This document shows, piece after piece, positions 1-31,228 of a stretch of DNA of 34,696 nucleotides; positions within the stretch are counted from its first letter, which is position 1; every line of letters starts with the position of its first letter. A model generated the notes under the pieces. It did no database searches, was not told where the DNA came from, and was given only the letters and a program-made list of their open reading frames with translations. This DNA comes from a virus: positions 1 to 34,696 of IMG/VR virus record IMGVR_UViG_3300046002_003237, one strand, 5' to 3'. Both the position numbers and the translations under genes were made by a program.

Positions 1-1202
1 TCTCGACTGATAAGCCCGAACGATTCCAGGGTCATCACGCGCCGCGTATGATGCTTGTTGTTGATGAGGCTAGTGGTATTGATGAGGCTATCTACGAAGC
101 TTCGGAGGGTTTCCTTACTGCGGACGAGGCGCGTGTCCTTCTGATTGGTAATCCGACGCGCCCGACGGGAACTTTTTATAAAGCCTTCCAGAAGGACTCT
201 GGTTGGTATCAGGTGCATATGAGTGCGTTTGATGCGCCAGCGTTCACGGGTGAGAAGGTGTCCGAGGCGGCGCAGAAGGCTCTGATTACTCAAGAATGGG
301 TGCAGGACGCGAAGCAACAGTGGGGTGAGGAGTCTGCTGCGTACAAGATTCGCGTCATGGGCGAGTTTTGTGAGACTACTGGTCGCCAATTCTTCCAATT
401 TTTAGACAAATTAGAGCCGGTTGCGCCTAAGAAGCGTGGCTTTGTGCGGGGAATGCCTGTCCCTGGGGGGCGTATCGAGTTCTATGAGGACTCTAGAGGC
501 GGAATGCGCTTGTGGGAGACGCCCAAGGCCGGCGAACGCTACATTATTTTTGCTGATGTTGCCGGATCGGTGAGTTTTGACGAGTATGAGCGTCGAGAAT
601 CCCGAATTGGCACTGGTGCCGGCTCGGATTACAGCGTCGCGCAAGTGTTGCGGCGTGATAATGGTCACCAGGTCGCTGAGATTCGTTATCGCGCTGATGT
701 TGACGAGTTCGCAGACGACTTGGCGCGCCTTGGCCGCTTGTATAACGATGCGATCATCGCTATCGAACGGAACGGGCCGGGAACGGCTGTCCTTACTCAG
801 CTGAAGAACACGATGGGGTATCCGCATATCTGGCGACCCCATAATCCGATTGGTGTGAAGGCGAAGTACGAGCAGACGCTTGGTTGGAACACGACGAGTG
901 CGACTCGACCATTGATGCTGGCGGCTTTGCAAGCTGCGATTCGTGACGAGCCTGAGCGTTTGAAGAGTGATCTTCTTCGTGATGAGATTCGCACGTTTGT
1001 TTTTAGGGATCGGAATGGTAAGGAGCCGCGCCCCGAGGCGGACGAGGGTTGTCACGACGACTTGGTGATGGCTATGGGTGGTGCGCAAGCGGTGTGGCAG
1101 CAAGAGTGTACGACTCCTATTCGGCTTGCTGAGCGTAAGAAGCCTGAGCCGCAGCCGAATCTTCAGAAGCGTGCGCCACGATTTGTAGTTGGTCGCGGCT
1201 GA
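1..1202 (+). CDS. terL: Terminase large subunit, 3' part (5' end outside window)
   Basis: This is the DNA-packaging motor ATPase/nuclease of the phage. The reading frame is open from base 3, upstream of the first ATG at 48, so the gene is cut by the window edge rather than starting at 48. What remains begins near the Walker B strand (LVVDEASG, where DE would activate ATP hydrolysis), followed by the IGNPT coupling motif. The C-terminal RNase H-like nuclease follows, with likely metal-binding residues in FADVAG, AIERNGPG and HDDLVMAMG. The phrase GWNTTSATRPLML is typical of these C-termini. It ends at TGA 1200-1202 and is followed at once by a hairpin with a T run. The Walker A part must lie upstream of the window. 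Family assignment is confident. Confidence 0.95.
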   Translation, partial: STDKPERFQGHHAPRMMLVVDEASGIDEAIYEASEGFLTADEARVLLIGNPTRPTGTFYKAFQKDSGWYQVHMSAFDAPAFTGEKVSEAAQKALITQEWVQDAKQQWGEESAAYKIRVMGEFCETTGRQFFQFLDKLEPVAPKKRGFVRGMPVPGGRIEFYEDSRGGMRLWETPKAGERYIIFADVAGSVSFDEYERRESRIGTGAGSDYSVAQVLRRDNGHQVAEIRYRADVDEFADDLARLGRLYNDAIIAIERNGPGTAVLTQLKNTMGYPHIWRPHNPIGVKAKYEQTLGWNTTSATRPLMLAALQAAIRDEPERLKSDLLRDEIRTFVFRDRNGKEPRPEADEGCHDDLVMAMGGAQAVWQQECTTPIRLAERKKPEPQPNLQKRAPRFVVGRG

Positions 1203-1203
1203 T

Positions 1204-1227
1204 CACAAGTTGCGGCTTGTGTTTTTT
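1204..1227 (+). terminator. Rho-independent terminator after terL
   Basis: CACAAG (1204-1209), loop TTGCGG, CTTGTG (1216-1221), then six T residues (1222-1227). A six-base-pair stem followed directly by a T run is a textbook intrinsic terminator, two bases after the terL stop. A related hairpin without a T run follows at 1237-1252. Confidence 0.75.
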
Positions 1228-1236
1228 GCTCTGATT

Positions 1237-1252
1237 ACAAGGTGCGACTTGT
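1237..1252 (+). repeat. Second copy of the 16-nt palindromic element
   Basis: ACAAG-GTGCGA-CTTGT repeats the core of the terminator hairpin (ACAAG-TTGCGG-CTTGT, 1205-1220) with two changed loop bases. The two copies are 32 bp apart. It has no T run, so it is not a terminator by itself. It could be a tandem operator-like site, a degenerate terminator copy or a packaging-related site. Confidence 0.55.
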
Positions 1253-1257
1253 TGGAT

Positions 1258-1314
1258 GCGGCTAGGAGAATCCGCGAGTGAGCGGGATGGGTTGGTATCT
1301 CCTAGCCGCTCGCG
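1258..1314 (+). other. Long inverted repeat with competing pairings
   Basis: GCGGCTAGGAGA (1258-1269) and TCTCCTAGCCGC (1298-1309) are perfect 12-bp inverted arms around a 28-nt loop. The loop holds CGCGAG (1273-1278), which can pair instead with CTCGCG (1309-1314). It also holds a small CCGC/GCGG hairpin. The element ends 13 bp before the -10 hexamer of the next gene. There is no T run. It may be an RNA switch, an operator or a DNA structure; the function is not known. Confidence 0.6.
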
Positions 1315-1326
1315 AACCGTAGCATG

Positions 1327-1338
1327 TATTATTCTCGC
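1327..1338 (+). promoter_or_regulatory. Leaderless-type promoter (TATTAT-N6-ATG)
   Basis: TATTAT at 1327-1332, then TCTCGC, then the ATG at 1339. With standard spacing the +1 base is the A of ATG. No -35 box and no Shine-Dalgarno is seen. Confidence 0.65.
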
Positions 1339-1668
1339 ATGAGCGAGTATAAGCCTAGCTCTGGAATGCAATCAGCAGCGCGCCGAGGACTAGACCTTGT
1401 TAAGGGTGGGCGTGCCGGCGGAGGCTTCGAGCCTGCTACGGCTACTCGCGCGCGGAAGATCGCCAGTGGCGCACCATTGTCGCGTGATCATGTTATGCGG
1501 ATGCACTCATTCTTTTCGCGTCACGCCGTTGATCGCAAGCCTAATTGGGGCGCGAAGGGTAAGGAGACTCCAGGGTATGTGGCGTGGCAGGCGTGGGGTG
1601 GGGATGCTGGTGCGGCGTGGGCTGCTCGGCAGGCTGCGAGCATTAAGCGTGTGGAGTCTGGTAAGTAG
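1339..1668 (+). CDS. Small phage protein with GL-x-L-(14-20)-ARARKIASG / WGG domain
   Basis: A 109-residue protein. It carries a domain often seen in phage head-region genes: a RGLDLVKGG start, a basic ARKIASG turn, SRDHVMRMHSFFSRH, and a C-terminal GYVAWQAWGGDAGAAWA. In other phages this module stands alone or is attached to head or prohead proteins; its function is not established. An ATG at 1324 is in frame, but the one at 1339 is chosen because TATTAT lies exactly 6 nt before it, as in the seven other leaderless-type genes here. It follows terL after a terminator, so it probably starts a new transcript. Confidence 0.8.
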   Translation: MSEYKPSSGMQSAARRGLDLVKGGRAGGGFEPATATRARKIASGAPLSRDHVMRMHSFFSRHAVDRKPNWGAKGKETPGYVAWQAWGGDAGAAWAARQAASIKRVESGK

Positions 1669-1670
1669 GG

Positions 1671-1682
1671 TATGATTCTCGT
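1671..1682 (+). promoter_or_regulatory. Leaderless-type promoter (TATGAT-N6-ATG)
   Basis: TATGAT at 1671-1676, then TCTCGT, then ATG at 1683. It lies within the 14-nt gap after the previous stop. No -35 box or Shine-Dalgarno. Confidence 0.7.
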
Positions 1683-1835
1683 ATGAGTGCAAAGTACGAG
1701 AAGCTTGTGAAGTCGTTGAGCGCGAAGGGTTCGCGTGATCCGAGGGCGCTGGCTGCGTATATTGGGCGGCGGAAGCTTGGTAAGGAAGAGTTTCAGCGTC
1801 GCGCTGCTGCTGGTCGTAAGAAGTCCGCAGAGTAA
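1683..1835 (+). CDS. 50-residue basic phage protein (KYEKLVKSL / RDPRALAAYIGRRKLG)
   Basis: Translation gives MSAKYEKLVKSLSAKG, then RDPRALAAYIGRRKLG, then a basic C-terminal tail ending in KKSAE. Small phage proteins with a 'RDPxALAAYIGRKKxG' core occur widely in structural regions; no role is known to me. It is short and strongly basic, consistent with nucleic acid or virion-internal binding (inference). The start is fixed by the -10 hexamer 6 nt upstream. Stop TAA at 1833-1835; the next promoter begins two bases later. Confidence 0.75.
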   Translation: MSAKYEKLVKSLSAKGSRDPRALAAYIGRRKLGKEEFQRRAAAGRKKSAE

Positions 1836-1837
1836 GG

Positions 1838-1849
1838 TATAGTTTTCGC
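1838..1849 (+). promoter_or_regulatory. Leaderless-type promoter (TATAGT-N6-ATG)
   Basis: TATAGT at 1838-1843, then TTTCGC, then ATG at 1850. The hexamer starts two bases after the previous stop codon. Confidence 0.7.
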
Positions 1850-2158
1850 ATGCCTGCTTTTGAGTCTGACCCTAGAGACAATAGTCGCCCGTTTGTACAC
1901 ACAAACGTAACTGGTGACGTTACAAAACAGAGTGCTATGAGTTCGATTGCCGAACAGGGCGTCAGCGGCGGGATGGGTGCGCTTGTTAAGACTCTTGCTA
2001 AAAAGGCAAAGGATAGGCGGTCAGCGATTAAGTATGCGCGCACTGGTGAGGCGGCGAAGAAGCGTGGCGAAATGGGATATAACCCGTCTGGCACGCAGGG
2101 CGCAAAGGGCACCGAGGCGAAGTATATGAATCCTCGCGTGGCTAAGCGAACTAAGTAA
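1850..2158 (+). CDS. Hypothetical basic protein, 102 aa
   Basis: No family recognised. The N-terminal third is polar (PAFESDPRDNSRPFVHTNVTG). The middle (SSIAEQGVSGGMGALVKTLAKKAKDRRSAIKYA) can form an amphipathic helix, and the tail is rich in Lys, Arg and Gly. It lies in the row of small genes between terminase and tail-tip genes, which suggests a virion-associated or assembly role. Its stop overlaps the next ATG by one base (TAATG), so the next gene is probably translated by coupling. Confidence 0.7.
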   Translation: MPAFESDPRDNSRPFVHTNVTGDVTKQSAMSSIAEQGVSGGMGALVKTLAKKAKDRRSAIKYARTGEAAKKRGEMGYNPSGTQGAKGTEAKYMNPRVAKRTK

Positions 2159-2442
2159 TGGACGCGCTTGACAAGCTCAAGAAGAAGAACGCTCCCCAAG
2201 TCAGCGTTGCCCTTATGCGCATGAAGCCCATGTCGCGCAAAGAAGCAGTAACAGACTCCATGTCGTATCGCGACGACGAAGGCAACATGGAAGAAAACAA
2301 GGAAATGTCGGAAGACAAAGAAGAGTATGGTTCCGAGTCTTGCCCCAAGTGCGCCGAGTATCAGATGCTAATCGGAGAAGCCATCACCATGTACATGCGA
2401 AACAAGGATAAGGAGGAAGCGCCAGACTCCGAGATGGAGTAG
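2158..2442 (+). CDS. Hypothetical acidic protein with CxxC, 94 aa
   Basis: Starts at the TAATG junction with the previous gene. It has a basic N-terminus (LDKLKKKN), then a highly acidic, Met-rich middle (DDEGNMEENKEMSEDKEE) and a single CPKC pair at about residues 62-65. One CxxC alone would need a partner to bind zinc. Codon choice differs from most neighbours, with more C-ending codons and fewer T-ending ones. No family recognised; probably a small structural or assembly protein by position. Confidence 0.7.
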   Translation: MDALDKLKKKNAPQVSVALMRMKPMSRKEAVTDSMSYRDDEGNMEENKEMSEDKEEYGSESCPKCAEYQMLIGEAITMYMRNKDKEEAPDSEME

Positions 2443-2446
2443 GTGC

Positions 2447-2458
2447 TACAATAATCGC
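2447..2458 (+). promoter_or_regulatory. Leaderless-type promoter (TACAAT-N6-ATG)
   Basis: TACAAT at 2447-2452, then AATCGC, then ATG at 2459. TG stands one base before the hexamer (TGcTACAAT), an extended -10 pattern. Confidence 0.7.
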
Positions 2459-2836
2459 ATGGCAGTAGATCCGAGCATGATGGGCGCACCTCCAATGATG
2501 CCGCCCGTACCAATGAGCGCACCCCCCGCACCCGGCGGCCCGATCCCTCCCGCAGTCGCGGCCCTTCCCGGCATGAGCCAGCTCGCGCAGGCGCAGACGA
2601 TGCAGATGATGGATCAGCAGCGTCAGATGGCGATGATGCAGGAAGAGATGCAGAAGCAGATGATGATGCTTATCTCTAGCCTGCCGACGCCGAATCCGGC
2701 TGGTGAGGCTGCTGTCTCGACTCCGATGAGTCCGATGATGAGTGGCGTTGGCGCTCCGCTTGGTGGCGCTTCGGCTCCGATGGGCGGCTCGATGATGGGG
2801 GGCGCACCGGACATGGGTGCGCCTGGTGCCTACTAA
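2459..2836 (+). CDS. Met/Pro/Gly-rich low-complexity protein, 125 aa
   Basis: About 24 of 125 residues are methionine, with many Pro, Gly, Ala and Gln. The layout is a Pro/Met-rich N-terminal segment (MMGAPPMMPPVPM), a central Gln/Met helix (QTMQMMDQQRQMAMMQEEMQKQMMML) and a Gly/Ser/Met C-terminal tail. The centre could form a coiled coil. No family recognised. Position between small head genes and the spike-base-like gene suggests a minor virion component. The 5' part is C-rich and the 3' part G/T-rich. Its end overlaps the start of the next gene. Confidence 0.7.
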   Translation: MAVDPSMMGAPPMMPPVPMSAPPAPGGPIPPAVAALPGMSQLAQAQTMQMMDQQRQMAMMQEEMQKQMMMLISSLPTPNPAGEAAVSTPMSPMMSGVGAPLGGASAPMGGSMMGGAPDMGAPGAY

Positions 2837-3104
2837 CAATTTTCAGCAGACTGATCCGGCGATCTTGTCGCCGTATACGCATGCTCATATTGTGACTCCG
2901 AGCAATACGGAGGATCTTGATGAGGTTACTCGCGGGTTGTACGCAAGTAAGGGTGCGTCTTCGCATTGTGACGTAAGCGTGATCCTAATAGGTGATACTG
3001 ATCCGGTTACGCTTGTGTTGGCGCGTGGCGAAATTGTTCCGATGCGAGTAAAGCGCGTACGTGTAACAAATACTGACGCGACAAACATCGTTGCCCTTTA
3101 CTGA
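2826..3104 (+). CDS. Spike base protein, Rcc01079-like
   Basis: The protein runs PTNNFQQTDPAILSP, HIVTPSNTEDLDEVTRGLYA, DVSVILIGDTDPVTLVL, then GEIVPMRVKRVRVTNTDATNIVALY. The order 'VTPSDT-DL-TRALY...G-tilPVrVkrV-TGTTATnIvAL' is the signature of the short spike-base family known from gene transfer agents and many phages, where it helps attach a host-contacting spike. The start is GTG 2826 (92 aa) or GTG 2817 (95 aa), both overlapping the upstream gene; neither has a clear Shine-Dalgarno. It is followed by a collar-domain protein, consistent with a tail-tip role. Confidence 0.75.
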   Translation: MPTNNFQQTDPAILSPYTHAHIVTPSNTEDLDEVTRGLYASKGASSHCDVSVILIGDTDPVTLVLARGEIVPMRVKRVRVTNTDATNIVALY

Positions 3105-8162: not shown

Positions 8163-8172
8163 GCCAACAAGC

Positions 8173-8204
8173 GGGGGAGAGTCGCCATTGTGCGGCTCTC
8201 CCCC
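8173..8204 (+). terminator. Strong hairpin terminator after the capsid gene
   Basis: GGGGGAGAG (8173-8181) pairs with CTCTCCCCC (8196-8204). The stem extends inward through a T-G wobble and CGC/GCG to a six-base loop, 13 pairs in all. The downstream side is only moderately T-rich (AGTTCTTCCT), so it may be leaky or may mainly protect the 3' end of the capsid mRNA. Confidence 0.75.
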
Positions 8205-8238
8205 AGTTCTTCCTACTCCAACGACCAGGAGACAATCA

Positions 8239-8885: not shown

Positions 8886-10451
8886 GTGCATCACAACATT
8901 GCCGCGTATAAGGCGGCCGTGCGTCGCCATGTAACGGTCGTGATGCCTTGGCATGGGCAAGACGAGGCGTTGTTGCGCGAGGCTCTTAGATCGCTCCCTA
9001 GGGGCGTTAGAATCATCATCGCTCAGAATGCGGGGAAGCATGAGATGGCTAGTGCTTTTAACGCTGCGTTGGCTAGCGTAAAGACTCGATACGTGTTCAT
9101 CATGGGCGCTGATGATGTCGTTGACGAGGATACGTTGTGGCGCTTGTGGGAAGCAGCCATTGATCATGATGGTGCGTATCCGTGGATGCTTGGCTTTGGC
9201 GAGCGCCGGTTCCGCTTTCCCGCCGAGCCGTGGTCAAAGCTTCGTATCCAAGACGCGAACGTGTGTGGCGTGATGCTGATCAAGACAAGCGTGGCGCTTG
9301 CCGTTGGCGGGTATCGAGACAAGGTTATTGAGGATTGGGACTTCTCGTATCGTCTTGCTAGTGCGGGGTATCGCCTTGCTCCCGCTCCGCTTGCTCGTTA
9401 CGGGTATCGTCAGCGCGTCAAGGGATTGAATCAGCAGACACTTCGCGGCGCGCTTGATCTTGGCTTGTCTATCAGGGATCTTGCTCCGTATGAGGAGCGC
9501 GACGCGGTTAGTGGCGTGTTCTATCAGTGGAAGTACGATGGGACGGCGTATGTGCGGTGTGATCTTGCGTCGCGCACTGCTGGTGGCGTGGTGCGTTCAA
9601 CGTGGGATGCGACGGATAAGCATGAAGCGCCGGCGTGGGTGTATCAGTATCCGAATAGTGATGCGCAAGTGTATTGGGATCTTGGCGCTCGACTAGAGAA
9701 GAAGCGCGTTATTGATGTGGATGATAATTACTTGTCGCCCGACTTGGCGAGCGTTGTTGGTCGGTACAACGATAAGAATGGCGCGGCGTGGGGCGAGCGA
9801 CAAGAGTCGCATAAGCGCATGGTCGAAGAGGCCGACTATGTTATTTGCGCGACGCCAGCGTTGGGAGAAGTGTACAAACTGGTCAATCCTAATACGATTG
9901 TTTGCGAGAATACGTGCGACCCGCTGGATTGGCCCAAGGCAAGCAAGAAGCGTCGCATCGTTGGGTGCGTGTTGAGTGCGAATCATTATGATCACACGCA
10001 CCTCGTAGAAGATGCGCTACGCAAAGCAAGCGTGTCTGGAGCTGACGTTCAAATTGTTGGCTTAGACCCTGGGTGGGACTTCGCTTATACACACTTTTCG
10101 TTTACTCCGAGTGTCGCAGCGTATCGGCGTATCCTTACGCGCTGGAGTATCGGCTTAGCGCCAGTGATTGATAATGATGTCACTCGATGCAAGAGTGATT
10201 TGAAGTGGCTTGAGTTCACGATGAGTGGTGCTGCTCTTGTTGCCAGCGGAGTGGAGGCGTACAAGCTTGTGCCAGACGACTCGATTATTCGCGCTGATAG
10301 TGCCGATGGGTTTACTGACGCGGTACTTGGCCTTCTTCGTGACGAGTCGGAACGGAAGCGTATGATTCGTCGTAGTATGTTTCATGTGAAACAAAACCGC
10401 CTTGTTTGCAATGAGTCGTTGCAGAGGCGTTATACTACAGCACTAGCATGA
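8886..10451 (+). CDS. Two-domain glycosyltransferase (GT2-like plus GT4-like)
   Basis: A 521-residue protein joining two sugar transferase domains. Residues about 12-200 look like a GT-A (family 2) domain: HVTVVMPWHGQDEALLREAL, the metal/nucleotide-sugar motif GADDVVDED (74-82), GGYRD and EDWDFSYRL (149-157). Residues about 265-521 look like a GT-B domain: DVDDNYLSP, EADYVICATPALGEVY, and SIGLAPVIDNDVTRCKSDLKWLEF-type donor site with a conserved Lys (about 436) followed by SGAALVAS. It starts with GTG 8886, two bases after the previous stop. It may glycosylate virion proteins or alter the host surface; the acceptor cannot be told. Its TGA overlaps the next ATG. Confidence 0.82.
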   Translation: MHHNIAAYKAAVRRHVTVVMPWHGQDEALLREALRSLPRGVRIIIAQNAGKHEMASAFNAALASVKTRYVFIMGADDVVDEDTLWRLWEAAIDHDGAYPWMLGFGERRFRFPAEPWSKLRIQDANVCGVMLIKTSVALAVGGYRDKVIEDWDFSYRLASAGYRLAPAPLARYGYRQRVKGLNQQTLRGALDLGLSIRDLAPYEERDAVSGVFYQWKYDGTAYVRCDLASRTAGGVVRSTWDATDKHEAPAWVYQYPNSDAQVYWDLGARLEKKRVIDVDDNYLSPDLASVVGRYNDKNGAAWGERQESHKRMVEEADYVICATPALGEVYKLVNPNTIVCENTCDPLDWPKASKKRRIVGCVLSANHYDHTHLVEDALRKASVSGADVQIVGLDPGWDFAYTHFSFTPSVAAYRRILTRWSIGLAPVIDNDVTRCKSDLKWLEFTMSGAALVASGVEAYKLVPDDSIIRADSADGFTDAVLGLLRDESERKRMIRRSMFHVKQNRLVCNESLQRRYTTALA

Positions 10452-22769: not shown

Positions 22770-22898
22770 CGAGCTTTCGCACCTTCATGTAGGTGGTACT
22801 TACTACCGATAGGCTTGCTTCTTATAGTCTTGATGCTTGTCTTGTAGACTTACAGCAACATCATCAAGCCATCGGTGTAACTACAGATTGGTTTGAGT

Positions 22899-22917
22899 CC
22901 CCCCCCAAACCCCCCCC
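22899..22917 (+). repeat. Double poly-C tract (C8-AAA-C8)
   Basis: Two runs of eight cytosines separated by three adenines, right before a -10-like TACACT. Such long runs are rare in this genome and prone to slippage. Confidence 0.85.
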
Positions 22918-25681: not shown

Positions 25682-25844
25682 CCTGTTGGCGAGCATGGCT
25701 CGCGACGTTCGATGGGCGCTGGATGCGCTCCGCGCGGGGGAACCCGAAACTGCGGAGCGCATCCTGTCTCGCTCGTTTGAAACGTATGTCCTTGTTCGCG
25801 AGGGCGAATATGATCGACTTGCGGAACGCGCAAAGAGAGTGTAG
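25662..25844 (+). CDS. Small helical protein, 60 aa
   Basis: No family recognised. It would be a single helical hairpin, with LLASMARDVRWALDALRAGE and AERILSRSFETYVLVREGEYDRLAERAKR. ATG 25662 is preceded by GAAGAG; GTG 25656 is a possible alternative. It overlaps the holin end, which suggests coupled translation. It may belong to the lysis group (antiholin or regulator are possible, without direct evidence). The promoter of the recombination genes lies across its end. Confidence 0.6.
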   Translation: MTGLHADLLASMARDVRWALDALRAGEPETAERILSRSFETYVLVREGEYDRLAERAKRV

Positions 25845-28076: not shown

Positions 28077-28438
28077 GCGCGTGTCATGTAAACATCATTG
28101 GCCGATTGACGGCTGACCCCGAAGCGAAAGTCCCCGCAAGCGGAGCGTCGTACACTCGGCTCCGCCTAGCGTGGAACGCACGCAAGGACGAACCAGGCTA
28201 CATCGACGCCACCCTGTTCGGCAAGAGTGGCGAGATCGCAGCGAAGTACCTGACAAAGGGCAGCCAGCTCTCGATCATGGGCGCTCGCCTAGAGTGGCGA
28301 CAGTACGAGAAGGAAGGCGAGGCGACAAAGCGCACCGCTTACTCTCTCGTCGGCGGGGATTTGATCCTGCTTGGTAGCAAGAATGATGCTGAGCAGGCGA
28401 GTCCGAAGGTGTCCACCGATGATGACATTCCGTTCTGA
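28073..28438 (+). CDS. ssb: Single-stranded DNA-binding protein
   Basis: A 121-residue OB-fold protein. It starts SACHVNIIGRLTADPEAKV, has YTRLRLAWNAR, LFGKSGEIAAKYLTKGSQLSIMGARLEWRQYEK and AYSLVGGDLILLG, and ends with the acidic tip STDDDIPF that recruits partner proteins. This is short compared with bacterial SSB (about 160-180) but normal for phages. AAGGAG lies 7-8 nt before the ATG; an upstream in-frame start at 28043 is rejected. ATGA coupling with the upstream gene and TGATG to the next gene. Confidence 0.92.
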   Translation: MSACHVNIIGRLTADPEAKVPASGASYTRLRLAWNARKDEPGYIDATLFGKSGEIAAKYLTKGSQLSIMGARLEWRQYEKEGEATKRTAYSLVGGDLILLGSKNDAEQASPKVSTDDDIPF

Positions 28439-28863
28439 TGTGGCCGCGCATACTACTCGTCCTTCTTGTCATCGTCTGCTTTGTGCTGGCGATGCTCAGT
28501 CCCGAAGTGGGCTGGTCGAAGGCGAAGCTCCCGCCGCACTACGAGCAGTGGCTCAAGACTTGCCGAGTGGAACAGCCAAGTGGCAAGCCCGGCAAGTGGG
28601 CAAGTATCAAGTGGAAGCACGACGGTTCGGGCATCACGTACCCGGGTGGGTGCGGCTTCACGATTCCGAACTGGCGGGATCACAAGCCGAAGGGCGCACC
28701 CGAGCGCATGTCGGACGCAACGCCGGCGCAACAGTTGTGGGCGTGCGAGAACATCTACACGTTCTACTTAAGACTGAGCGGCAGTCACAGGTACGCATCG
28801 ACAGTTTGGGACGCGAACCACAGCATCCTGGGATGGTACGGCTTCACGGAGGAGACATGGTAA
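28438..28863 (+). CDS. Secreted Rpf/transglycosylase-like lysozyme-fold protein
   Basis: A 141-residue protein with an N-terminal membrane or signal segment (residues 4-20, ILLVLLVIVCFVLAMLS) and a domain similar to resuscitation-promoting factors: EQWLKTCRVEQPSG (Glu45 as probable catalytic acid), GGCGFTIPNWRDH, and ATPAQQLWACENI. Those factors cut peptidoglycan glycan strands in actinobacteria. It has two extra cysteines in the domain. Its place among recombination genes, far from the lysis genes, is odd. It may act on the wall during infection, for example in superinfection exclusion or maintenance; that is inference. It overlaps both neighbours. Confidence 0.72.
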   Translation: MWPRILLVLLVIVCFVLAMLSPEVGWSKAKLPPHYEQWLKTCRVEQPSGKPGKWASIKWKHDGSGITYPGGCGFTIPNWRDHKPKGAPERMSDATPAQQLWACENIYTFYLRLSGSHRYASTVWDANHSILGWYGFTEETW

Positions 28864-29789
28864 AAGTCATTCTCGTTGGTCACGGATACTTTGGTTCTCT
28901 CTATCGAGAGCGCATCCTCAAGCACAAGCAACTCAAGCTTGTTGGCGTTGTTGATAAGGATCTTGGTCGCCTAGTCGAGTTTCGTGGCACGAACCTTGGC
29001 GAGTCGTACGAGATGTGTGCTGACAGTATTGACCATGACGCAGTAGTCGTATGCACACCACCGCAGCATCACGCAAGCATCAGCATCAGCGCACTAGAAC
29101 GAGGGAAGAATGTTCTCTGCATGAAGCCGGGAGCTATGACTGAGGCCGAGGCCGAAGCTGTGACGAAGGCAGTGAACGTAGGCAATGGTCGTTTCTTTGT
29201 GGATTACACGATGCTGAACGCTCCCGAAATAGACTTCGTTACTGGGCTGATTGGAATGGTTGGCCTCTTAGGTAGCTTCTCGTCGGCTCGGCACGTAGTT
29301 ACTGGGCCAAAGCCAGAAGGTATCGTGCGGGATCTTCTCTGCCATGACGTAGCCATGCTGGAACACTTGGGCCTTGCGAGTAATTATCTGAACGTGACAT
29401 GCGTGATGACGAGTGGCGTGAGTGCGACGGCGATCATCACTCGTCCGAACGGCAAACGTCTCGCATACATGAACGCTAGTTACAACGCTACGTATCCTCG
29501 AAAGGACACGCGCTTCAAAGCTGAGGAGATGCGTAGCGTAACGAACCCTGGCCTTACCGTTACGTGGGATCAGAACCAGAAGTCAGTCAGCGTCGCGTCA
29601 CAGGGTAAGAGCATTGATGTTCAGTTCCGACACGATCCTGATCTGATCACGCGCTCGTTGGATACGTTCGCTGATCCGTGGTACTCGCTACTGGTCGAGG
29701 GGCAAACGTATCGTCGCATCATGCGTATCCTTCACGCAATGCAGCACTCTGCTGACAATGATGGTATTGTCGTCAGCGTTCCATCGTGA
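28857..29789 (+). CDS. Gfo/Idh/MocA-type oxidoreductase
   Basis: A 310-residue NAD(P)-dependent dehydrogenase candidate. The Rossmann loop is VGHGYFG (residues 7-13), followed by LVGVVDKD (acidic strand end), then DAVVVCTPPQHHASISISALERGKNVLCMKPGAMTEAEAEAV, in which Lys90-Pro91 takes the place of the conserved EKP. The C-terminal part has DLLCHDVAMLEHLG, with a His-Asp pair likely in the substrate site. These enzymes commonly oxidise or reduce sugars and inositols. ACGGAGGAGAC is the Shine-Dalgarno. Possibly linked to sugar supply for the glycosyltransferase gene, which is inference only. Its TGA overlaps the next GTG. Confidence 0.82.
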   Translation: MVKVILVGHGYFGSLYRERILKHKQLKLVGVVDKDLGRLVEFRGTNLGESYEMCADSIDHDAVVVCTPPQHHASISISALERGKNVLCMKPGAMTEAEAEAVTKAVNVGNGRFFVDYTMLNAPEIDFVTGLIGMVGLLGSFSSARHVVTGPKPEGIVRDLLCHDVAMLEHLGLASNYLNVTCVMTSGVSATAIITRPNGKRLAYMNASYNATYPRKDTRFKAEEMRSVTNPGLTVTWDQNQKSVSVASQGKSIDVQFRHDPDLITRSLDTFADPWYSLLVEGQTYRRIMRILHAMQHSADNDGIVVSVPS

Positions 29790-29908: not shown

Positions 29909-30207
29909 GTGAGTGGCAGAAGATTGAGAACCAGCTTGCCAACGGGGTCGAGGATTTGTATGAGGAGTGCCTTGTCTTGTGGGAAGATAAGATGAATCGT
30001 GAGAAGGATGGTGCGTGGTCAAGGTTTGTTGCTGAGTGTAAGGCTCGGTACGAGGCGGGTCGTAAGGAGCATGAGGCTACGTCGTCTACGTGGGAAGCGT
30101 GGAGTGACGAAGAGTTTGCTGAGAATATTCGCGAGGAGTTGATGGATTTTGTGATCTATTCTGCTGCTCGTACCAATCGTATGCTCACTCGTCATGCGCG
30201 TAGGTAG
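29905..30207 (+). CDS. Hypothetical helical protein, 100 aa
   Basis: No family recognised with certainty. It is helical and acidic, with WQKIENQLANGVEDLYEECLVLWEDKM, a Trp-rich middle (SSTWEAWSDEEFAENI) and REELMDFVIYSAARTNRML. The last segment recalls helices of small phage MazG-like or nucleotide-handling proteins, but the metal-binding EExxE pattern is not clear. AAGGAG precedes the ATG. It overlaps both neighbours, 4 nt upstream and 14 nt into the methyltransferase gene. Confidence 0.7.
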   Translation: MSEWQKIENQLANGVEDLYEECLVLWEDKMNREKDGAWSRFVAECKARYEAGRKEHEATSSTWEAWSDEEFAENIREELMDFVIYSAARTNRMLTRHARR

Positions 30208-31228
30208 CACGTTCACTGGCGTTGGCGGCGCAGACATGGGCTTCGAGGCTGCTGGCATGACGGTTGCGTGGCAGTGCGAACTGGATGCGTGGAAGCGCAG
30301 CGTTCTTGCGGCGCACTATCCGAGCATCCCTATCTATGATGACATTACGACATTGTTTGATCCCGAACCAGTAGACCTTATGGTCGGCGGGTTCCCATGC
30401 CAAGACTTGTCCATTGCAGGCAAACGAAAAGGATTTACTGGTGAACGATCAGTCCTCGCTTTTGAGTTCCTCCGACTTGCAGAAACTCTCAAACCACGAT
30501 GGCTCGTACTTGAGAATGTTCCAGGCCTCCTCTCTTCCAACAAGGGACTTGACTTCCAACGACTCTTGCGAGAAGTGGCCGCTTGTGGGTACGGCGTGGG
30601 GTACCGCTGCTTGGACGCCAGATATTTCGGAGTACCGCAGCGGCGCCGGCGAATCTTCGTTGTCGCCCGTCGAGTTGAAACTGGTGTCGATCCTAGAGCC
30701 GCTAGTGGATTCGCGTTACAATCTCTCTGCGAAAGCGGCAGCGGGGATACTACGCCGTGCGTCCCGCCGTGGCAGGACACTGCCCGAACCGTTGGGGGCG
30801 GCGCTGAAGAGGGTCGCATCGTCGGAGCTCTAAGCGCGCGAGGTTACACGCAGTACACGGATCAAGAGTTTGTCCGTGGCGGCCAGCTCGTAACCGGGGA
30901 CGACATGATTGCGTATCGTAAGAGTGCGCGCGTAAATGCTGATCCAGATTCGCCTGAGACTTGGGTTGATGATGGTCGGGCGAACACGCTGAACAAGTTC
31001 GATGTTGGTGATGTGCGCACTACGCACGCTGTGGTCGGTTCAGTGGTACGAAGACTTTCCCCAACGGAATGCGAGGCACTGATGGGATGGCCGCGCAACT
31101 GGACGGCACCCGAAGGCGTCAAGGCGCCCGACTCTCGACGCTACGCAGCATGCGGCGACGGCATCGTTGCTAACGTGGCGTACTGGATTGGACAACGCAT
31201 CATGCAGATCGACAAGGAGACACAGTGA
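30194..31228 (+). CDS. C5-cytosine DNA methyltransferase
   Basis: A 344-residue enzyme that methylates carbon 5 of cytosine in DNA using S-adenosylmethionine. Motif I is FTGVGGADMGF (7-17). Motif IV is GGFPCQDLS with the catalytic Cys69. Motif VI is ENVPGL (107-112), motif VIII QRRRRIF (149-155), and motif X GDGIVANVAYWIG near the end. The stretch from about 160 to 285 is the target-recognition region. No restriction endonuclease gene is near, so it is an orphan, probably protecting phage DNA. A second reading frame with its own start signals lies inside it (30441-30833). It overlaps the upstream gene by 14 nt and the RuvC-like gene by GTGA. Confidence 0.92.
   Translation: MRVGSTFTGVGGADMGFEAAGMTVAWQCELDAWKRSVLAAHYPSIPIYDDITTLFDPEPVDLMVGGFPCQDLSIAGKRKGFTGERSVLAFEFLRLAETLKPRWLVLENVPGLLSSNKGLDFQRLLREVAACGYGVGYRCLDARYFGVPQRRRRIFVVARRVETGVDPRAASGFALQSLCESGSGDTTPCVPPWQDTARTVGGGAEEGRIVGALSARGYTQYTDQEFVRGGQLVTGDDMIAYRKSARVNADPDSPETWVDDGRANTLNKFDVGDVRTTHAVVGSVVRRLSPTECEALMGWPRNWTAPEGVKAPDSRRYAACGDGIVANVAYWIGQRIMQIDKETQ
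30441..30833 (+). CDS. Overlapping gene inside the methyltransferase (Ser-rich, ILRRAxxRGRxLP)
   Basis: A 130-residue frame, offset from the methyltransferase frame. It has AAAAGGA 7 nt before GTG 30441. The protein has a Ser-rich start (SSLLSSSDLQKLSNHDGSY), SLPTRDLTSNDSCEKWPLVG, AWGTAAWTPDISEY and the C-terminal block YNLSAKAAAGILRRASRRGRTLP followed by EPLGAALKRVA. I recall similar hypothetical proteins in phages ending 'LSaKACaGILRRAEKRGreLP..L..AL'. Shifted by one base, that block reads as the methyltransferase segment 'ESLRGdPaPrREAgqgaA', so the overlap appears to recur across phages. Whether it is translated is not proven. Function unknown. Confidence 0.55.
   Translation: MNDQSSLLSSSDLQKLSNHDGSYLRMFQASSLPTRDLTSNDSCEKWPLVGTAWGTAAWTPDISEYRSGAGESSLSPVELKLVSILEPLVDSRYNLSAKAAAGILRRASRRGRTLPEPLGAALKRVASSEL

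Follow-up and report, generated by a model that had tools for sequence, protein, structure and literature searches.

A conserved hairpin between terL and the head region of an environmental phage as a putative minus-strand small RNA gene with its own promoter

The window analyzed here comprises all 34,696 bases of a virus record, in which terL is followed on its 3' side by several small genes, the portal protein gene and the major head protein gene. Matches of the TerL protein to named phages are distant at best, and a DNA search of window positions 1-3000 against 50,697 phage records gave no match. The features at the border between terL and the first small gene are as follows.

1-based positions 3-1202: terL, 5' end cut, stop codon TGA at 1202
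1203-1257, no strand assigned: insert with two palindromes (1205-1220 and 1237-1252), outside the conserved element
1258-1309, minus strand: putative small structured RNA of 52 nt, 5' end at 1309, closing stem formed by 1298-1309 and 1258-1269
1272-1285, minus strand: inner hairpin CCGC-UCACUC-GCGG of the predicted fold
1286-1297, minus strand: unpaired strand AUACCAACCCAU of the predicted fold, with CAACCC at 1294-1289
1310-1315, minus strand: putative -6 to -1 of the minus-strand promoter, variable in sequence and constant in length
1316-1324, minus strand: putative extended -10 box TGCTACGGT (TGnTAnnnT), in 36/36 carriers with flanking DNA
1327-1332, plus strand: -10 element TATTAT of a divergent, overlapping leaderless promoter; TATNNT, 6 nt and ATG/GTG in 36/36
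1339-1668, plus strand: first small gene, phrog_2859 region of unknown function; start taken at 1339, not 1324

The two arms of the hairpin, 1258-1269 (GCGGCTAGGAGA) and 1298-1309 (TCTCCTAGCCGC), are fully complementary across a gap of 28 nt, which confirms the 12-bp inverted repeat described in the original prediction. Eight inverted repeats with arms within 80 bp were listed in the window, and two of them, this one included, are perfect over at least 12 bp; the other (25721-25764, 13-bp arms, 18-nt gap) lies between likely genes. The RNA fold of 1200-1340 was better than that of 200/200 dinucleotide shuffles (z -4.2). With regard to the start of the first small gene, a stop codon separates the two candidate ATGs in one relative, L063, and the second ATG is therefore the start there.

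The insert at 1203-1257 is present in the window, in its close kin and in a group of relatives (L008-L011). It contains ACAAGnTGCGnCTTGT twice, 32 bp apart, with a T6 run after the first copy that is terminator-like on the plus strand; the motif pattern, with up to three mismatches, had 14 matches in the window versus 3.5 expected, and the repeats resemble an operator pair. Other relatives have differing inserts at the terL end, together with seeming repeats of the last bases of terL: the insert at about 2010-2441 of L029 is a gene, present in L029 and L031, and those in L016 (after 2972) and L007 (after 5197) are short non-coding stretches. The terL end looks like an insertion hot spot. The TAG in the left arm of the hairpin is the terL stop only in relatives without the window-type insert.

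Further observations were made elsewhere in the window. An inverted repeat (8166-8211; 20-nt, 80%, 6-nt loop) lies directly 3' of the major head protein gene, and long C runs (C8, AAA, C8) at about 22860-22910, located 5' of a tail gene, are a possible phase-variable stretch. A family search assigned 8886-10451, 28371-29789 and 30194-31228 to a glycosyltransferase, a GFO/IDH/MocA oxidoreductase and a C5 cytosine methylase, which may serve in surface or DNA modification.

A TerL scan yielded 48 terL relative loci, and the element was found in 34 of them, in addition to the window itself, and was absent from 14, a presence far above chance. Two further carriers, L063 and L069, were found via the element and are outside the rate of 34/48 but inside the counts on 37 carriers given below; two later-found carriers among relatives of the first small gene (L200 and L221) are in no count. 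Many of these loci are near copies, and the 37 carriers reduce to nine distinct hairpin sequences. Among the 48 loci with relatives of the first small gene, no distant carrier was found in the 12 whose upstream DNA was inspected. In a 45-row tree of terL, three changes are needed for the main-type label; it is clustered, neither forming one clade nor distributed at random. The L008-L011 group has the insert and the hairpin of the window beside a different terL lineage, which indicates exchange in the terL/hairpin region.

Conservation of the hairpin was compared with that of its surroundings. Among seven type-2 carriers (21 pairs), the hairpins differ at 0/52 positions in 11 pairs and at 2/52 in 10, whereas terL third codon positions of the same carriers differ by 25-44%. 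In five lineages (L029, L032, L033, L034 and L035) the hairpins differ at 0/52 positions in 10/10 pairs and terL third positions by 31-44%, and the 5-nt spacer 3' of the hairpin differs at 2-5 of its 5 positions in all 10 pairs. Beyond this spacer, conservation resumes in another block, whose plus strand reads ACCGTAGCATGTAT. Recent exchange alone is insufficient to explain why the spacer that separates the two conserved blocks varies in sequence and is constant in length, and the stricter conservation of the hairpin than of the adjoining terL argues for strong selection on the hairpin. The distance from the right arm to the start codon of the first small gene is 29 nt in 32/36 carriers and 32 nt in 4/36, whereas the hairpin and terL are separated by anything from an overlap up to several hundred nucleotides.

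The leaderless promoter that the original prediction had placed downstream of the hairpin is present by sequence, with TATTAT at 1327-1332, 6 nt, and ATG at 1339. Across 39 starts, which are our own list of likely genes and not an annotation, TAnnnT stands 6 nt upstream in eight, and each of the other spacings from 3 to 9 accounts for 0 to 2. The eight leaderless-type genes start at 1339, 1683, 1850, 2459, 3117, 14628, 16057 and 17391, and three of their promoters have the form TGnTAnnnT (2444, 3102 and 16042). In Mycobacterium tuberculosis, 73% of primary starts have TAnnnT, the main -10 motif, and the most active class of promoters is TGnTAnnnT (PMC3898074). The promoter style, taken by itself, suggests that the host may be an actinobacterium.

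The same extended motif, TGnTAnnnT, is found on the minus strand in 36/36 carriers with flanking DNA, either 6 nt (32 carriers) or 7 nt (4 carriers, L039 type) before the first minus-strand base of the hairpin. Its variants, TGCTACGGT in 29 carriers, TGCTAGTGT in 4, TGCTATGGT in 2 and TGGTATGGT in 1, change at n positions only. TGnTAnnnT occurs 21 times in the 69,392 positions of the window, including the box at the hairpin, and the odds of the minus-strand promoter are post hoc, since it was spotted after inspection of the conserved box. The two promoters and the hairpin occur together in each of the 36 carriers with flank; among the 14 non-carriers, one (L016) has a minus-strand TGnTAnnnT within 130 nt of the terL end, without the hairpin. 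The spacer between box and hairpin varies in sequence and not in length, as expected for the -6 to -1 positions, and at the level of sequence the arrangement is that of a dedicated promoter with its start at the 5' end of the putative RNA. The leaderless genes share the layout of promoter, six free bases and start; at the element, the hairpin occupies the place of the start codon. ATG, GTG and TTG are absent from the minus strand of the hairpin in 29/37 carriers, and one such codon is present in 8/37; 29% of all 52-mers of the window are without any. The hairpin and the leaderless promoter of the original prediction are supported; it had left this conserved promoter-like box pointing into the hairpin unreported.

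The arms can fold on either strand, and the two strands were therefore compared in the relatives. In eight of the nine distinct cores the sequence AACCC is kept, and the ninth (L063) has AAAUCCC. The L039 homologue differs from the main type in its inner stem and in part of its outer stem; its inner hairpin has a different stem sequence and a 6-nt loop, UCCAUC. On the minus strand L039 folds according to the main-type plan, namely the outer stem, 10-13 unpaired nucleotides with CAACC, the inner hairpin with a 6-nt loop, 1-2 bases and the outer stem again, and on the plus strand this plan is not kept. When the inner 27 nt were shuffled, 9/2000 sequences reached the plan on the minus strand; on the plus strand the observed sequence lacks the mirrored plan, which 8/2000 shuffles reached. 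The minus-strand consensus (8 sequences) has two-sided changes in 4/16 pairs and a covariation term of -0.8, and the plus-strand consensus (9 sequences) has two-sided changes in 2/17 pairs and a covariation term of +0.54; the two-sided changes stem from two sequences, and the MAFFT placement of L039 is imperfect. With this thin sampling, the minus-strand consensus points to a conserved secondary structure.

Individual pairs differ in the strand that they favor. A loop change in L009 is C-A on the plus strand and G.U on the minus strand, and one closing pair of the inner stem in the main types is U.G on the plus strand and C-A on the minus strand. Two models built from the eight main-type sequences scored the held-out L039 at 14.9 (plus) and 14.1 (minus) for R1 and at 15.0 (plus) and 14.6 (minus) for R2, these near-equal scores coming from the arms alone. 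Because the two strands score nearly equally and the inner pair is better on the plus strand, the choice of strand is carried mainly by the promoter.

These results are best explained if the minus strand of the element encodes a small structured RNA, expressed from a promoter of its own that is divergent from and overlaps that of the first small gene. We assign this reading a probability of about 0.6, based on sequence, conservation, spacing and fold prediction, from which we also infer transcription, the start site, mutual exclusion and action in trans. RNA polymerase would use the extended -10 element TGCTACGGT (1324-1316) and begin transcription on the outer base of the right arm (1309). 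The RNA would open with GCGGCUAGGAGA, continue into the unpaired strand holding (C)AACCC and into the small inner hairpin with its pyrimidine-rich UCnnUC loop, and be closed by the complementary arm; the RNA should be protected by this closing stem, in which its 5' end would be sealed. It would span 1309 to at least 1258. In the carriers listed, neither strand has a T-run after the stem, as an intrinsic terminator would have, and the absence of a U-tract on both strands leaves the 3' end unexplained; the RNA may run on in the direction of terL, may be processed back to the stem or may be terminated by Rho.

The -10 hexamers at 1316-1321 (minus strand) and 1327-1332 (plus strand) are 5 bp apart and would admit one polymerase at a time, a geometry from which synthesis of the RNA and transcription of the first small gene would be mutually exclusive. 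The RNA would act in trans, with its exposed strand and its loop contacting a protein or an RNA of phage or host, and the pyrimidine-rich character of both segments in the predicted fold suggests base pairing or protein binding. Complementarity to the 39 start regions of the window was no better than that of shuffled queries. Counted against an RNA gene are the facts that 14/48 terL relatives do without the element and that a start codon stands on the minus strand of the hairpin in 8/37 carriers.

Other explanations were weighed against the small RNA gene. The element could be a protein-binding DNA site, in which a regulator that binds the 52-bp dyad (positions of about -30 to -81) controls the plus-strand promoter. 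The fixed distance to that promoter and the near-absolute conservation of sequence, loop included, agree with such a site, but a dimer would not usually bind half-sites 28 bp apart, and neither the minus-strand TGnTAnnnT nor the architecture kept in L039 is explained, so that we regard this as rather unlikely. We consider it unlikely as well that the element functions as a plus-strand RNA in terL read-through transcripts, whether as an insulator, a terminator without a U-tract or a processing site. The plus-strand fold is stable, insert-less carriers have the terL stop within the left arm, and a weaker alternative stem, GGGUURG/CUAGCC, is available on the plus strand (3' halves alone, -8.9 and -14.6 kcal/mol); yet the U-tract is absent, the distance to terL is not conserved, the architecture of L039 is kept on the minus and not the plus strand, and the box with its spacer pattern is left unexplained. 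As a competitor for the right arm, this alternative stem is possible on the plus strand in most variants and needs U.G pairs that turn into C-A on the minus strand; it was set aside when the minus-strand reading was preferred, and is retained here as part of the plus-strand explanation. A recombination joint or packaging site, in the form of a conserved linker between modules that is maintained to allow exchange or terminase cutting, would fit the switching of gene cassettes and inserts right at the element and the occurrence of the window-type insert with another terL lineage in the L008-L011 group. Exchange would, however, homogenize the 5-nt spacer too, which is instead the most variable part, and 14/48 relatives with the same kind of terL have no element, which makes this explanation quite improbable.

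The original prediction had proposed a switch in which CGCGAG in the loop pairs with CTCGCG in competition with the 12-bp stem, and this match exists in the window, where the last base of the right arm and the adjoining TCGCG provide 6/6 pairs. It is contradicted by the relatives: all six pairs are available in only 6/14 distinct carriers, 1 to 5 pairs in seven, and L039 is without CGCGAG, and no compensatory changes were found in the carriers that lack the full match. Variation in the region is greatest in the 5-nt stretch where CTCGCG lies. A two-state switch or attenuator was accordingly rejected, the competing stem not being kept in relatives, and we give it hardly any credence. The suggestion of a ribosome site, AGGAGA, hidden in the stem was not supported, as the frame after AGGAGA differs among variants by eye; a leader peptide, GTG AGC GGG, after AGGAGA was likewise rejected, its length and sequence differing among variants by eye. 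A role in read-through RNA from terL is not favored either, since the distance is fixed to the downstream promoter and not to terL. What is supported of the earlier interpretation is a functional hairpin that lies outside the leaderless transcript and adjoins the leaderless promoter; the switch, the ribosome site and the read-through role are not supported.

Searches beyond the locus gave no match to a described element. No Rfam 15 family reached its gathering score on the element of the window or on those of L015, L022, L039 and L044, and a scan of window positions 1150-1400 with E up to 10 returned two sub-threshold unrelated matches and no 6C RNA. The core pattern had 0 matches in 84,980 sampled cellular genomes, and a looser loop pattern had two genome matches and one viral match (L188-L190), none of them flanked by the arms of the element. 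The arms pattern was found in 82 stretches of viral contigs; among the 51 listed (L137-L187), L170 is a known carrier, and the other listed stretches have arms that do not enclose GGGTTG and are probably chance matches. Whole-record searches for second copies with R1 in 35 records gave one strong place per carrier, and the only other R1 matches were in G017 (E 3.7e-4, inside an open frame) and G021 (E 0.07); R2 searches of 31 records, mostly non-carriers or distant terL relatives, found nothing. The CCGC/GCGG inner stem presumably bears a likeness to CRISPR repeats, and mimicry of such repeats received no support from the Rfam scans. A literature search, largely short of full texts, found no description of the element.

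It is possible, and we propose it tentatively, that the element represents an unrecognized phage small RNA family at the border of the packaging and head genes, in which either the RNA or the gene transcript is made and the RNA serves as a timer or regulator of infection. If so, a new small RNA family would have been found in an environmental phage group without a close DNA relative for window positions 1-3000 among the 50,697 records. The rule of TGnTAnnnT, 6 nt and a hairpin in place of the start codon could reveal hidden RNA genes in other phages that have leaderless genes, and it gives a precise prediction of one start site.

Several phage small RNAs of the set VpdS, DicF, sar, OOP and AgvB have their own promoter, and the 6C RNA of actinobacteria is a structured RNA with C-rich unpaired segments. 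The element has such segments in its predicted fold as well, and gave no 6C match in the Rfam scan of 1150-1400. The phage small regulatory RNAs VpdS, DicF, sar, OOP and AgvB are about 50-90 nt long, as given in Table 1 of PMC12197685. Set beside them, the element would likewise be a short RNA encoded by a phage genome; unlike them, it would open with a closing stem, has no U-tract as a terminator and is placed between terL and the head region. The cluster A mycobacteriophages D29, Kampy and L5 have non-coding RNA regions at their genome ends (PMC10986025). The likeness would be that of non-coding RNA in actinobacterial phages, and the difference is that the regions described there sit at genome ends. 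The element is thus probably a new example of phage small RNAs rather than a new class.
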